This document shows, piece after piece, positions 1-7,820 of a stretch of 16,304 nt of DNA (positions are counted from its first letter, which is position 1; the number at the start of each line of letters is the position of its first letter). The notes under the pieces are model-generated. The model did not search any database. It saw nothing but the letters and a program-made list of their open reading frames with translations, and was not told where the DNA came from. The DNA is from Neisseriaceae bacterium (lineage in GTDB: Bacteria; Pseudomonadota; Gammaproteobacteria; Burkholderiales; UBA11063), in assembly GCA_947454215.1 (NCBI GenBank), contig CANGJN010000001.1, positions 1 to 16,304 on the forward strand. The letters run 5' to 3'. Made by a program: the position numbers and the translations under genes.

Positions 1-37
1 ATATTTATTGGTATACAATATTTTGAAAGGAAAGAAT

Positions 38-553
38 ATGAAATTTAATCACTTGTTAATACTCACGGTAAATTTATTATTTTGTTTAAATCTATCTTAT
101 GGATATTTAAAATGCGAAGATTTTTTGAAAACGCAACATGAATACCGTTTTTTTAGTAAAGTTATTCATGGAAATTATAGCTATAAAATAACTATTTTTG
201 TTGACAATTCCGAGGATAATAACCTTAAAACAACTAGAAGTAAAATTAAATTTTCAGATTTTGTATATATTCCTTCCGGTTTAAAACTTGACATTCCATC
301 ATTTGAATATTTAATAGGATTATTTTGTAGCGAAGCACAGGAAGGATCTCCTATTTTAGGTTTTTTCATTTATGGATCTAATGATCCTTTTCTTAAAGAA
401 AAAGATAATATAATTGATCTTCCTTCCAGAATTAGCCATCATAAAGTAGATGGTAAAGATATAGGCGAAGCACAATTAGTTAGAAGGAGCTTATCACATT
501 ATATGTTAAATGAAATTGACCACAGAATTTACATGGAAGCTAGTAAACAATAA
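38..553 (+). CDS. Small secreted protein of unknown function (tandem paralogue A)
   Basis: I do not recognise this protein. It is 171 aa from the ATG at 38, chosen because GAAAGGAAAG (25-34) lies just upstream and the product then starts with a clean Sec signal peptide (Met-Lys, hydrophobic core at residues 6-19, probable cut after Ser-Tyr-Gly at residue 22). An upstream in-frame TTG at 8 would bury that signal. The mature part is predicted to be soluble, with one Cys just after the cleavage site (C26) and one in a Leu-Phe-Cys context in the middle, which could form a disulfide in the periplasm or outside the cell. The gene at 862-1431 is a clear paralogue: near-identical signal peptide, matching Lys-Phe-Ser-Asp-Phe and Leu-Phe-Cys segments, and a similar Leu-Asn/Gly-Glu-Ile-Asp/Glu C-terminal region. 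This copy is shorter at the C-terminus, and a frame-shifted remnant of the longer tail lies downstream. Confidence 0.75.
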   Translation: MKFNHLLILTVNLLFCLNLSYGYLKCEDFLKTQHEYRFFSKVIHGNYSYKITIFVDNSEDNNLKTTRSKIKFSDFVYIPSGLKLDIPSFEYLIGLFCSEAQEGSPILGFFIYGSNDPFLKEKDNIIDLPSRISHHKVDGKDIGEAQLVRRSLSHYMLNEIDHRIYMEASKQ

Positions 554-3783: not shown

Positions 3784-4366
3784 TTTTTGAATACTTGTTA
3801 TTCGAGTTATAATATTAATTTTTTTATGATAATTTTGATTTAATTTTTATAAATTCATTAGTTGGTAAAATATTTTTTGATTATTTATATTAAAAAAGAA
3901 TTTTATTATTATGGTCAATTATTGTGTTAAGAATACTTACTGTTGAAGTATGTAAAGGTGAGATGGATTGTTAATACTACAATTATTTTGCTTTTGTTAC
4001 CGAGGAATAAAATATTTTAATAAAAATAATATAATTCTATAAAAGTAAAATAATTACCTTAAAAAAAGTAATAAATTAATTCTTTTTAAGAAGGATATAG
4101 ATAGAATATGTTAATAGATTTTTAAATACAAGTAGATATTATATATTTCCCTCATTATACAACTTTTGTATAATTAATGTTATCTTTATATTTCCATAAA
4201 AAGTGAGTTTTAAATTTTTAGTTGATTTATTATAAACAAAAATTTTATTTAAATTTTATTATTGCTTTTGTAAAAGTAAACTAGTTAGTAAATTTATCAA
4301 AATTAAAGGTTAGGCATTTATTCTTAATATTTACAATAAATCTGACAAATTTTAAAGGGTTAAATT
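3784..4366. other. AT-rich intergenic region
   Basis: This 583-bp spacer has no ORF worth calling. A weak 5-bp hairpin (GAATA 3789-3793, TATTC 3799-3803) followed by T-rich DNA may end the gspN-rlmB transcript. A stretch near 3912-3990 is less AT-rich than its surroundings and could be a gene relic, but nothing is recognisable. A strong small dyad lies at 4154-4174. AAAGGG at 4354-4359 is the ribosome binding site of the next gene. Confidence 0.5.
4154..4174. promoter_or_regulatory. Perfect 9-bp inverted repeat upstream of the CaaX-tail gene
   Basis: ATTATACAA (4154-4162) and TTGTATAAT (4166-4174) pair perfectly around a 3-nt CTT loop, about 190 bp before the next start codon. TATAAT-like hexamers lie inside the arms on both strands. 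It could be an operator, a small stem-loop or chance in AT-rich DNA. Confidence 0.35.
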
Positions 4367-5125
4367 ATGAAATCGATTTTAATTTTATTAATATTTTTTT
4401 TAAATACATATATTTATGCTAATGCTGGTTGTAAAAAATTACAAAATGATGATAGTATTGTTATTTTAACTCAAACTCATACGCATGATCTTGCAGAAAA
4501 AGCAGTTTTAAATGTTTTATATACGAATTATGAAAATGAAAGTTATGGAGTCCTTGTTTTAGTTAAGTATATTAATTTTTCTAATAATCAAGAAATCATC
4601 CCAGGATCAGATAAATATGAACAATTTTTTCACAATCGATTTATCTTATATAAATGTAGTGGGAATAATTTAGAACTTTATTCATTAGCAAATAAAAGAA
4701 CTAATGTTTTAGCTAAATATAATACTGTGTCTGAAGAAAGCAAAAATCCTCATCTTGTCTATTGGATTACAATAGAAAATAAACCATCTAATATTTTACT
4801 TGAAAAACTTAAAGATTCTATAGCACTAATACCTGATGTAAATTTTGAGGATAGTATGAAAATTGCAAAAGAGGATTCACCTCATGAGAATGATTTAGAA
4901 TCTCAAGAAATGAAAGACGCAACTACATTATACAAAGGTAAACGAACAACTGAGAGATCTCAAATGCTAAGTTCTAGAAATTGGACGTCTAGTTCTATGG
5001 GCTCGTCCTACGGTGGTAGTGCTGACCATAGTGATGGTCATATTGTTAAACATAATGTTCAACGCCATGATGTAGGAATTTTATCTCCTAATGATAATAA
5101 AAGTGATTGTTGTGCAATTCAGTGA
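4367..5125 (+). CDS. Secreted protein of unknown function with C-terminal CaaX-like box
   Basis: I do not recognise this 252-aa protein. The ATG has a good ribosome binding site (AAAGGG, 4354-4359). Residues 1-20 form a Sec signal peptide ending in Ala-Asn-Ala, with Cys at residue 22 of the precursor; this is a poor lipobox, so ordinary signal-peptidase cleavage is more likely than lipidation. A folded region (about residues 21-165) has a second Cys in a Leu-Tyr-Lys-Cys context, a two-Cys arrangement loosely like the paralogues at 38-1431. A hydrophilic Ser/Gly/His-rich, probably disordered segment (about residues 170-245) follows. The last residues are Asp-Cys-Cys-Ala-Ile-Gln, so the protein ends in a formal CaaX box (CAIQ) of the type eukaryotic farnesyltransferase accepts. 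This would fit a host-modified effector, but the Sec signal does not itself give access to host cytosol. It is probably a single-gene unit with a terminator at 5310-5340. Confidence 0.75.
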   Translation: MKSILILLIFFLNTYIYANAGCKKLQNDDSIVILTQTHTHDLAEKAVLNVLYTNYENESYGVLVLVKYINFSNNQEIIPGSDKYEQFFHNRFILYKCSGNNLELYSLANKRTNVLAKYNTVSEESKNPHLVYWITIENKPSNILLEKLKDSIALIPDVNFEDSMKIAKEDSPHENDLESQEMKDATTLYKGKRTTERSQMLSSRNWTSSSMGSSYGGSADHSDGHIVKHNVQRHDVGILSPNDNKSDCCAIQ

Positions 5126-5309
5126 TTTGGTTGATCATTTAAATTTCAAAGATAAATGCAAATTTATTCTCTTAGGTGAGATTTTAACTAAGTTATGTTA
5201 ATAATTATGCATACTTTAAAATCTATTGGAATGAAATATATAATCTAAGATTGTTGTTAAACAATAAAAAATTTCATATTCTTTATAAATTGTCATTTTT
5301 TTAACTAAC

Positions 5310-5345
5310 AAATACCATGCTACTTTGTGGCGTGGTATTTTATTA
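5310..5345 (+). terminator. Intrinsic terminator after the CaaX-tail gene
   Basis: AAATACCATGC (5310-5320) pairs with GCGTGGTATTT (5330-5340) to form an 11-bp stem with one G-T wobble and a 9-nt loop. T-rich sequence follows, and T-rich plus A-rich sequence lies upstream, so it could act in both directions. It is 185 bp after the stop at 5125. Confidence 0.75.
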
Positions 5346-5658
5346 TATATACTATAAAATATTATTAAATAAAAAATACAAATATAACATAAAAAATCTT
5401 ATATTATTTATTAGAGTTTTAAATATTTTTGAAATTATATTCCTAAGGATTTAAAATTTTACTATTATGATGAGTATTTAATAATGTCACAGTGAAATTA
5501 AAATTTGATAAAAATATAATAAAAGTGATAATTTTAGCTAAGTATAACTTCTAATATTATTTATAACTTTGAGAGATTTAAAACTCAATTTTAATGATAA
5601 AATTTATAGTTATATAAAAAATCTATTTATATTAATGACAAAATAAATAAAATTTATC

Positions 5659-5687
5659 TTTACTTTTTTGATAGTTCCATTTATAAT
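5659..5687 (+). promoter_or_regulatory. Candidate sigma-70 promoter for tyrS
   Basis: The sequence TTTACT (5659-5664), then a 17-bp spacer, then a perfect TATAAT (5682-5687) places a start near 5694, about 39 nt before the tyrS ATG. In such AT-rich DNA, chance -10 boxes are common, so this is only a candidate. Confidence 0.4.
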
Positions 5688-5732
5688 TATGTGTTAGATG
5701 TGTAAAATTTAAACTATAAGAGAATTTAAAAT

Positions 5733-6848
5733 ATGATAGATATTGAAGAACAATTGTTAATCATTCAAAAGGGAGTTGATGAAATATTGCCCTTGGATGA
5801 ATTAAAATCTAAACTTATGCTAAATAAACCATTAAATATTAAAGCCGGATTTGATCCTACTGCACCAGATTTACATCTAGGTCATACTGTATTGCTAACT
5901 AAAATGAGGCAATTGCAAGATTTAGGGCATAATATTACTTTTTTAATTGGTGATTTTACTGGTTTGATAGGTGATCCTACTGCTAAAAATGTAACGAGAC
6001 CAATATTAACTAAGGCTCAAATAGAAGAAAATGCTAAAACATATGCTCAACAAGTTTATAAAATTTTAGATCCTGATAAGACTAAAATTGATTTTAATTC
6101 TAAATGGTTAGTGGAATTAGGGTCTATTGGTATGCTACAATTAGCGGCGTCTCAAACTGTGGCTAGAATGTTAGAGCGTGATGATTTTAATAAACGTTTT
6201 AAAGAAAATAAATCTATATCTATTCATGAGTTTATGTATCCTTTGTTACAAGGATATGATTCTGTTGCTATGAATTGTGATATTGAATTAGGAGGCAGTG
6301 ATCAAAAATTCAATTTATTAATGGGTAGGGAACTACAAAAATATTATGGAAAAAACCAACAGGTAATACTAACTATGCCTCTATTAGAGGGTACTGATGG
6401 CATTAATAAAATGTCAAAGTCATTGAATAATTATATAGGTATCAATGATAGACCTAATGATATGTTTGGAAAAATAATGAGTATCAGTGATACTTTGATG
6501 TGGAAGTACTATGACTTATTGTCTTTAAAATCGACAAGTGAGATTAACATACTTAAGAAAAATGTATCTAACGGTTTAAATCCTCGTGATGTTAAGGTAA
6601 TGTTAGGTACTGAACTAGTTACAAGATATTATGGTATTAGTGAGGCTAATGATGCTTTGAATGATTTCGAAATTAAATTTAAGCACCATGGTTTTCCAGA
6701 AGATTTAGAACTTATAGAGGTTTCTATTGAAGAAGATCTGATTTTGATTGCAACTTTACTTAAATTAGTTAATTTAGTCTCTTCTTCATCAGAGGCGAAT
6801 AGATTAATAGATCAAGGTGGAGTTAAAATAAATGGCACTAAGATATAA
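5733..6848 (+). CDS. tyrS: Tyrosyl-tRNA synthetase, truncated in its S4 domain by an in-frame TAA
   Basis: TyrRS charges tRNA-Tyr with tyrosine using ATP in the cytoplasm. The class I catalytic core is intact: the HIGH-type motif is His-Leu-Gly-His (48-51) and the KMSKS loop is at 226-230. Tyrosine-pocket segments such as Gln-Gly-Tyr-Asp and Gly-Gly-Ser-Asp-Gln are also present. It resembles the roughly 400-aa TyrRS type found in betaproteobacteria. The frame stops at TAA 6846-6848 (codon 372), inside the C-terminal S4-like tRNA-binding domain (from about residue 338), directly after a conserved Lys-Ile-Asn-Gly-Thr-Lys-Ile. The same frame then continues for 27 codons encoding the normal end of the domain, up to TAG 6930-6932, for a full length of 399 aa. 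So this is a recent nonsense change, a readthrough case or a sequence error. No second tyrS is visible in the window. Confidence 0.93.
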
Positions 6849-6932
6849 GATAAAAGTTTAAAATTATCTAAAGGTACAATATTTTTGATTCAAGCAGGTA
6901 AGCGTAAATTTAGCAAAGTAATTGTTAAATAG
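6849..6932 (+). pseudogene. tyrS: Detached C-terminal tail of TyrRS (S4 domain end), in frame
   Basis: The 27 codons directly after the premature tyrS stop, in the same frame, encode Asp-Lys-Ser-Leu-Lys-Leu-Ser-Lys-Gly and then Gln-Ala-Gly-Lys-Arg-Lys-Phe, the characteristic end of the S4 domain in TyrRS. The true stop is TAG at 6930-6932. There is no start codon with a ribosome binding site, so it cannot be an independent gene. Its intact sequence implies either a very young stop mutation or continued expression by readthrough. Confidence 0.9.
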
Positions 6933-6938
6933 AAACAT

Positions 6939-6944
6939 AAGGAG
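6939..6944 (+). promoter_or_regulatory. Strong Shine-Dalgarno with no well-placed start codon (folD leader)
   Basis: The AAGGAG sequence is one of the best ribosome binding sites in the window. No ATG, GTG or TTG follows at normal distance. The first ATG (6964) is 19 nt away and reads only four codons before a stop. The only AT-rich non-standard option in the folD frame is ATA at 6960. Confidence 0.5.
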
Positions 6945-6963
6945 AAAAATTTCAATTATATAA

Positions 6964-7061
6964 ATGAAAAAATCCTAAATTGCAATAAGTTTTCTCAAAA
7001 AATTTTAACAGAAGTAACGGATGAAATTAACAATTTAACTAAAATTCATCGATCACCATGT
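6964..7061 (+). pseudogene. folD: Out-of-frame 5' end of folD
   Basis: Reading in the folD frame from 6969, this stretch encodes the family's usual N-terminal helix (Lys-Ile-Leu-Asn-Cys-Asn-Lys-Phe-Ser-Gln-Lys-Ile-Leu, ending near Ser-Pro-Cys before Leu-Ala-Ile-Ile-Leu-Ile-Gly). The only ATG, at 6964, is one base out of phase and meets TAA after Met-Lys-Lys-Ser. It is followed by an A6 tract (6967-6972). Seven A residues would join ATG to the conserved frame and give a 285-aa protein, close to the 288 aa of E. coli FolD. The frame is otherwise clean, which suggests a single-base loss, transcriptional slippage or a sequencing error. Confidence 0.8.
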
Positions 7062-7820
7062 TTGGCTATTATTTTAATAGGCAATGATTTTGCATCTCAG
7101 GTATATGTTAATAATAAAATTAATGCATGTGATACGGTTGGCATCAAGTCGTTAAAATATGATTTATCTGAAAATGTTACTTTGACTGAATTATTAAGTT
7201 TGATAAATACTTTAAATAAAGATAACTCTGTTGATGGGATTTTAATTCAACTTCCAATACCAAAACATTTAAACAAAGAATTAGTTATAAATAGTGTTAA
7301 TTACAAAAAAGATGTAGATGGATTATGTAGCCGTAATTTAGGTGCTCTTTTGTCAGGAAATCCTAACATTAGACCATGTACATCAAGTGGAGTAATGCAT
7401 ATTTTAGATAATTTGAATACTGATTTTCTTGGTAAGCATGTAGTAGTTATAGGTGCTTCAAATTTAGTTGGTAAACCAATGGCAATTGAGTTAATAAATC
7501 GATTTGCCACTGTAACCATTTGTAATAAAGAAACAATAAATCTAAATTTAATTTCATCTACTGCAGATATTGTAATTGTAGCAATAGGTCAACCAAGATT
7601 TATCAAAAGGAATTATATTAAAGATAGTGCTATAGTTATTGATATAGGCATAAATAGAGATGATGAGGATAACATATGTGGAGATGTAGATTTTGATGAT
7701 GTTATTGATAGGGTTTCATATATTACTCCTGTTCCTGGTGGAGTAGGCAAATTAACAGTTGCGATGTTAATGAAGAATACTGTGCTTTGTTTCCAAAATA
7801 ATATTTATAATGTAGTTTAA
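7062..7820 (+). CDS. folD: Bifunctional methylenetetrahydrofolate dehydrogenase/cyclohydrolase FolD
   Basis: FolD interconverts 5,10-methylene-THF, 5,10-methenyl-THF and 10-formyl-THF, supplying one-carbon units for purines and initiator tRNA. The open frame from the TTG at 7062 gives 252 aa and holds nearly all the enzyme. Visible are the catalytic Tyr and Lys in Gln-Val-Tyr-Val-Asn-Asn-Lys, the Asp-Gly-Ile-Leu-Ile-Gln-Leu-Pro loop, Lys-Asp-Val-Asp-Gly, the Pro-Cys-Thr loop, a Rossmann Gly-Ala-Ser-Asn-x-Val-Gly-Lys-Pro and the terminal Thr-Pro-Val-Pro-Gly-Gly-Val-Gly signature. Some usual residues differ (PCTP is PCTS; the Arg of GRSN is Ala; GPMT is GKLT). The N-terminal helix is encoded just upstream but is out of frame with the only ATG (6964), so the TTG is probably not the natural start; it sits inside a beta strand and has no ribosome binding site. 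rnr starts 1 nt after the stop. Confidence 0.88.
   Translation: MAIILIGNDFASQVYVNNKINACDTVGIKSLKYDLSENVTLTELLSLINTLNKDNSVDGILIQLPIPKHLNKELVINSVNYKKDVDGLCSRNLGALLSGNPNIRPCTSSGVMHILDNLNTDFLGKHVVVIGASNLVGKPMAIELINRFATVTICNKETINLNLISSTADIVIVAIGQPRFIKRNYIKDSAIVIDIGINRDDEDNICGDVDFDDVIDRVSYITPVPGGVGKLTVAMLMKNTVLCFQNNIYNVV

Follow-up and report, generated by a model that had tools for sequence, protein, structure and literature searches.

An isolated in-frame TAA codon near the 3′ end of tyrS in an AT-rich draft genome: probably a consensus error, a strain variant or a very young nonsense mutation

The stretch of DNA analysed here (16,304 nucleotides; hereafter referred to as the window) constitutes contig C1 in a fragmentary draft genome that is 52.31% complete and whose 180 contigs add up to 945,430 bases. 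The genome belongs to the genus containing Aquella oligotrophica, and its G+C content is 26.5% over 153,531 sampled bases. The window contains tyrS, the gene for tyrosyl-tRNA synthetase (TyrRS), followed by folD (Table 1). The tyrS frame opens with ATG at 5733 and is interrupted by TAA at 6846–6848 after 371 codons; the same frame is then open for a further 27 codons (6849–6929), until TAG at 6930–6932. The original prediction, that a TAA splits tyrS and is followed by 27 homologous codons, was confirmed at exactly these positions. The TAA deprives the product of its last 28 residues, the full frame to TAG 6930 comprising 399 codons. Neither the additional lesions nor the clear decay beyond the lesion that would mark a pseudogene were found, the region 5733–6929 being a single frame except for the TAA.

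Table 1. Features of the tyrS–folD region (coordinates in the window)
Feature	Coordinates	Strand	Remarks
tyrS, tyrosyl-tRNA synthetase	5733..6848	+	371 codons and TAA; TIGR00234 match
S4 part upstream of the stop (residues 330–371)	6720..6845	+	both helices, sheet only in part
In-frame TAA, codon 372	6846..6848	+	sense codon in 19/19 same-genus ends
Tail of 27 codons with homology to the C-terminal strands of the S4 domain, closed by TAG 6930–6932	6849..6932	+	
AAGGAG, Shine-Dalgarno-like (presumed function)	6939..6944	+	15 nt upstream of ATA 6960
folD, methylenetetrahydrofolate dehydrogenase/cyclohydrolase	6960..7820	+	same frame as tyrS

Three small proteins encoded elsewhere in the window (8–553, 832–1431 and 4367–5125) look secreted by eye and have no Pfam match over the cut-off; the first two are alike at the N-terminus. 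Three segments (1432–2289, 3784–4366 and 5126–5732) of about 580–860 bases contain no open frame of at least 80 codons, which is long for a bacterial intergenic region. A 616-codon open frame that leaves the contig (14455–16302, plus strand) has a signal-like start and a repeated ‘MYLFGG’, and by eye resembles a kelch-type surface protein. At L124:1561–3851 (minus strand), two overlapping frames lie in different phases: the downstream one, of 479 codons, has no ATG and is kelch-like by partial family matches, and the likeness of the upstream one to it is seen by eye alone. The pair may represent a gene with a frameshift or a misassembled repeat.

The product of the window's tyrS matched the NCBIfam model of bacterial TyrRS, TIGR00234, at 375.2 bits (cut-off 113.8). 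With this family it shares the catalytic core, the KMSKS motif and the first part of the S4 domain, and its identity to the nearest intact protein is 80%, but it ends 28 residues early. The match of the truncated protein covers positions 5–374 of the 406-position profile; that of the intact relative, P0003, reaches position 404. The truncated TyrRS accordingly has no complete C-terminal S4 domain. A six-frame search of the genome with the Pfam S4 model gave a match that crosses the stop (34.1 bits, positions 5–46 of 48, with one TAA inside), and the truncated protein alone scored 23.4 bits over positions 5–34; the S4 part that is kept lies barely above the cut-off of PF01479 and barely below that of PF13275. 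As a lone query, the 27-residue tail gave no family match. Since about 8% of random 27-codon stretches of the same composition stay open, the openness of the tail is by itself weak evidence. Judged by its sequence, the tail is nevertheless homologous to the end of the S4 domain and not a chance open frame.

To place the TAA among related genes, we compared tyrS ends at three distances. Within the genus, 21 of 23 genomes had a match, the window's own counted, the match in G002 being only weak and TrpRS-like; the family-level search that followed covered the same 23 genomes. At the site of the TAA, each of the 19 same-genus tyrS ends that were read carries a sense codon (Ser in 12, Thr in 3, Ala in 2 and Ile in 2), and 18 of them continue to a stop past the tail, the remaining one leaving its contig partway through it. 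The nearest homologue among the matches listed (the best 120 of 7,999), P0003, is 80% identical, intact at 399 residues and encoded on a contig of 861,282 bases. The shortest of the 119 homologues in that list, with the window's own left out, has 388 residues, and among the 118 that remain without P0003 the column of the TAA holds Ser in 55, Ala in 31 and a gap in two. All 80 of the more distant tyrS loci that were kept extend for 387–407 residues from the start of the match and have a tail of at least 26 residues; the column of the TAA is a gap in one of them. A relative whose TyrRS naturally ends at the same place, the refuting case named by the original prediction, was found neither among the 19 same-genus ends nor among the 119 homologues (best 120 of 7,999) nor among the 80 distant loci. 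In the TrpRS-like matches of the three relatives G002, G008 and G015, an apparent internal TAA was considered as a recoding pattern and rejected, each TAA preceding the start codon.

The tail was then compared with the remainder of the protein. Identity between the window and P0003 is 256/310 in the catalytic part, 39/61 in the C-terminal region preceding the stop and 17/27 in the tail. Of the 10 tail columns that are at least 90% conserved in relatives, one is changed in the window only, one in P0003 only and one in both proteins; at columns of the same conservation, departures of the window alone number 2/195 in the catalytic part and 0/23 in the C-terminal part before the stop. With the threshold lowered to 70%, departures peculiar to the window number 2 among 13 tail columns and 1 among the 34 columns immediately preceding the stop. 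The window differs at one tail position where the listed relatives (best 120 of 7,999) show no variation. The departures in the tail may thus be in slight excess, with numbers too small to weigh, and the comparison suggests no clear relaxation in the tail, its divergence being about that of the flank before the stop. Because the tail is about as similar to P0003 as that flank is, the stop is probably either unreal or far more recent than the divergence from P0003. The original prediction had singled out the preservation of the tail: the tail is indeed preserved, but this is in itself no argument for readthrough, since a stop of recent origin, or one introduced by error, would show the same.

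Readthrough of the UAA, whether programmed or leaky and under selection, would yield TyrRS isoforms of 371 and 399 residues and couple the termination of tyrS to the expression of folD. In its favour are the preserved tail and the arrangement downstream. The tyrS frame, the tail and folD share one frame, for which the chance expectation is one in three, and the start region of folD (6933–7062) holds no in-frame ATG, GTG or TTG before 7062, so that ribosomes coming from tyrS may be needed for translation of folD. The start of folD is expected near 6960 because the family match begins at the usual N-terminus: ATA 6960–6962 aligns with the first Met of P0124 and lies one codon after that of P0125, and the family profiles place the first Met at the ATA codon or at most two codons later. 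The FolD of the nearest relative is listed as ten codons shorter than a start at the ATA would give. Initiation at AUA occurs in bacteria, with roughly a tenth of the output of AUG in poor medium according to PMC13009471. As in the AUA-start genes infC, ccpN and citZ of Staphylococcus aureus described there, the window's folD has an ATA near the position of the start Met and an AAGGAG upstream; in contrast to those genes, the ATA is a candidate start and the spacing of 15 nt is long. The ATA may stand at the position of the start Met, or folD may be broken by a slip in an A run. Given the short listed N-terminus of the relative's FolD, the unusual folD start may be older than the tyrS stop.

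Against such a mechanism, a selected recoding site should be shared by relatives, and among the genomes compared the stop occurs in this one only, a sense codon standing at the site in each of the 19 same-genus ends. Around the stop (6840–6960) we found no stimulatory RNA fold (z = 0.27; 116 of 200 shuffles fold equally well or better), and UAA is the stop codon least prone to readthrough. Moreover, the tail and the sequence preceding the stop are conserved to about the same degree, for which youth is explanation enough. We consider programmed readthrough quite improbable. An elaborated form of it, in which UAA is read through at a low rate, both forms of TyrRS coexist, ribosomes that end at TAG 6930 start folD at the AUA and the output of folD tracks the charging state, is more speculative still. 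Our search of the literature on premature stops in bacteria, in endosymbionts and in essential genes of draft genomes gave nothing apt by title or abstract among the matches listed.

We also asked whether UAA has lost its role as a terminator in this genome. Of the conserved genes with a family match, 24 of 24 (10,901 codons) end within 6 positions of the end of their profile, and in 18 of these 24 the terminator is TAA, which bears out the earlier exclusion of a reassigned TAA. The set was assembled from two batches: 20 proteins of this genome (G000), of which 17 reach the end of the profile, two have no match and one, which is kelch-like, has only partial matches, and 8 further G000 genes including folD, which was left out of the count. 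These are stop-to-stop frames, in which the end of the family is compared with the end of the frame, a comparison that reveals less about the N-termini; the matches of RNase R and of a peptidylprolyl isomerase, for instance, start at profile positions 57 and 88. The 24 genes are no random sample, since length and coding score governed their choice among 106 listed frames. In addition, none of the 17 ABC-ATPase domain matches in the genome (15 of them over the cut-off) contains an internal stop. A scan of the 153,531 bases by codon usage for in-frame stops flanked by coding sequence gave 15 pairs, many of which look like neighbouring genes sharing a frame; we used family models in its place because the tail of tyrS itself scores 2.8, under the cut of 3. 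Decoding of codon 372 by an ochre-suppressor tRNA or by a partial reassignment of UAA would call for a tRNA gene that could be missing from an assembly about half complete. Among the 11 assembled tRNAs, none has a UUA anticodon, and the ends of the conserved genes and the stop-free ABC-ATPase matches likewise speak against it, making this the least probable of the explanations considered.

Were the TAA a real and very recent nonsense mutation that is fixed or frequent in the population, the catalytic core would stay intact, the S4 domain would be broken and the TyrRS would work weakly, perhaps aided by background misreading of UAA, in an AT-rich lineage under relaxed selection. To predict the effect of the truncation, we compared AlphaFold models of the window's 371-residue protein (mean pLDDT 80.2) and of P0003 (mean pLDDT 81.7), which were built from 25 and 26 sequences with no templates. 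In the C-terminal part of the P0003 model there are strands at 327–330, 336–338, 364–366, 369–371, 377–379, 383–388 and 392–398 and helices at 339–345 and 352–360; the last three strands fall past the position of the stop. The C-terminal part of the window's model contains two helices and no strand. Confidence is 64 over residues 361–370 and 46 at residue 371 in the window's model, and 87 over residues 361–370 and 93 over 371–380 in that of P0003. The two models are of different proteins, one intact and one truncated, and differences in sequence may add to the contrast. The truncation is thus predicted to damage the S4 fold.

How harmful such damage would be depends on the gene copy number and on the role of the domain. 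One TyrRS gene was found in the assembly (52% complete), and the one other match of the search was taken to be the tryptophanyl enzyme; searches of plasmid and viral collections gave no match. Since about half of the genome is missing from the assembly, there is some chance that a suppressor tRNA or another tyrS lies in the missing part. A fixed stop should be costly, given that the TyrRS is the only one found and that the truncated model has no S4 strand. According to PMC6310243, TyrRS enzymes deprived of the S4-like domain generally bind tRNA-Tyr with lower affinity, and the apicoplast TyrRS that has lost the whole domain no longer activates tyrosine; the excerpt of PMC4275181, which describes an S4-like fold, tries no partial truncation. 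The window's product would share with such S4-deleted laboratory constructs a loss of S4 function, which generally weakens the binding of tRNA. It differs in being a natural sequence that lacks the last strands only, whereas the constructs lack the whole domain by design. As removal of the domain generally lowers affinity, the product may be weakened rather than dead.

The evidence on a real mutation points both ways. The clean 3′ ends of the 24 conserved genes and the 17 stop-free domain matches lower the base-error rate to be expected; the genome is AT-rich; the loss of the S4-like domain generally costs affinity for tRNA-Tyr, so that the product may be weakened and not dead; folD likewise has no canonical start, and one kelch-like gene looks frameshifted by eye; and an otherwise invariant column is altered in the tail. 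Weighing on the other side are the single TyrRS gene found, the strandless truncated model with its low confidence, the behaviour of the apicoplast enzyme and the fact that the truncation is absent from all relatives examined. We regard a real nonsense mutation as a serious, if tentative, contender.

The reading that we place first, with a probability of about one half, is that the TAA is a consensus error or an unfixed strain variant and that the main tyrS of the population is full length. The TAA would then be an isolated single-codon defect in the draft consensus and carry no decoding signal; it would have arisen as a base error, or as a minor strain variant picked by the assembler, and the main tyrS would run for 399 codons to TAG 6930. 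A fixed stop is disfavoured because the gene is essential, the tail is preserved and damage to the S4 fold is predicted, and the allele that is real or prevalent is inferred to be intact. The fragmentary state of the assembly (180 contigs, 52% complete) is consistent with this explanation. A weak hint comes from a protein database, in which the entries for the upstream neighbour RlmB and the downstream neighbour FolD each list one member sequence on two contigs, and that for the 371-residue tyrS product lists two member sequences and one contig. Provided that ‘contigs’ counts the representative alone, as we presume, and that the region is spanned by the second contig, another deposit of this species may have a different tyrS product while both neighbours are unchanged. 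The second member may have another codon at position 372 or another start call, or may be a fragment at a contig break or edge; should the database take the longest member as representative, the second member would not be a 399-residue form, which would count against an error or variant. So does the apparently good base quality elsewhere (24/24 conserved genes and 17 ABC-ATPase matches clean), and the departures of the window alone, 2/13 in the tail against 1/34 before it, are a slight sign of decay in small numbers.

Taken together, an error or strain variant ranks first, followed closely by a real, very young nonsense mutation, with programmed readthrough unlikely. Of the four options that the original prediction had left unranked, a young or unreal stop is favoured by the sense codons of the 19 same-genus ends and by a tail about as conserved as its flank, and programmed readthrough gained nothing from our analyses. 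Most likely, the explanation is an ordinary one either way and involves no new way of decoding. The recoded genes of small endosymbiont genomes described in PMC5009743 are likewise AT-rich and apparently broken yet well kept, but they contain frameshifts relieved by transcription slippage at long poly(A) runs, whereas the window has an in-frame UAA. If the TAA is an error, it is a caution against reading single nonsense codons in draft assemblies as biology without recourse to the reads. A real and fixed TAA would be a natural test of how much damage to the S4 domain can be tolerated in the seemingly sole TyrRS of an AT-rich genome.
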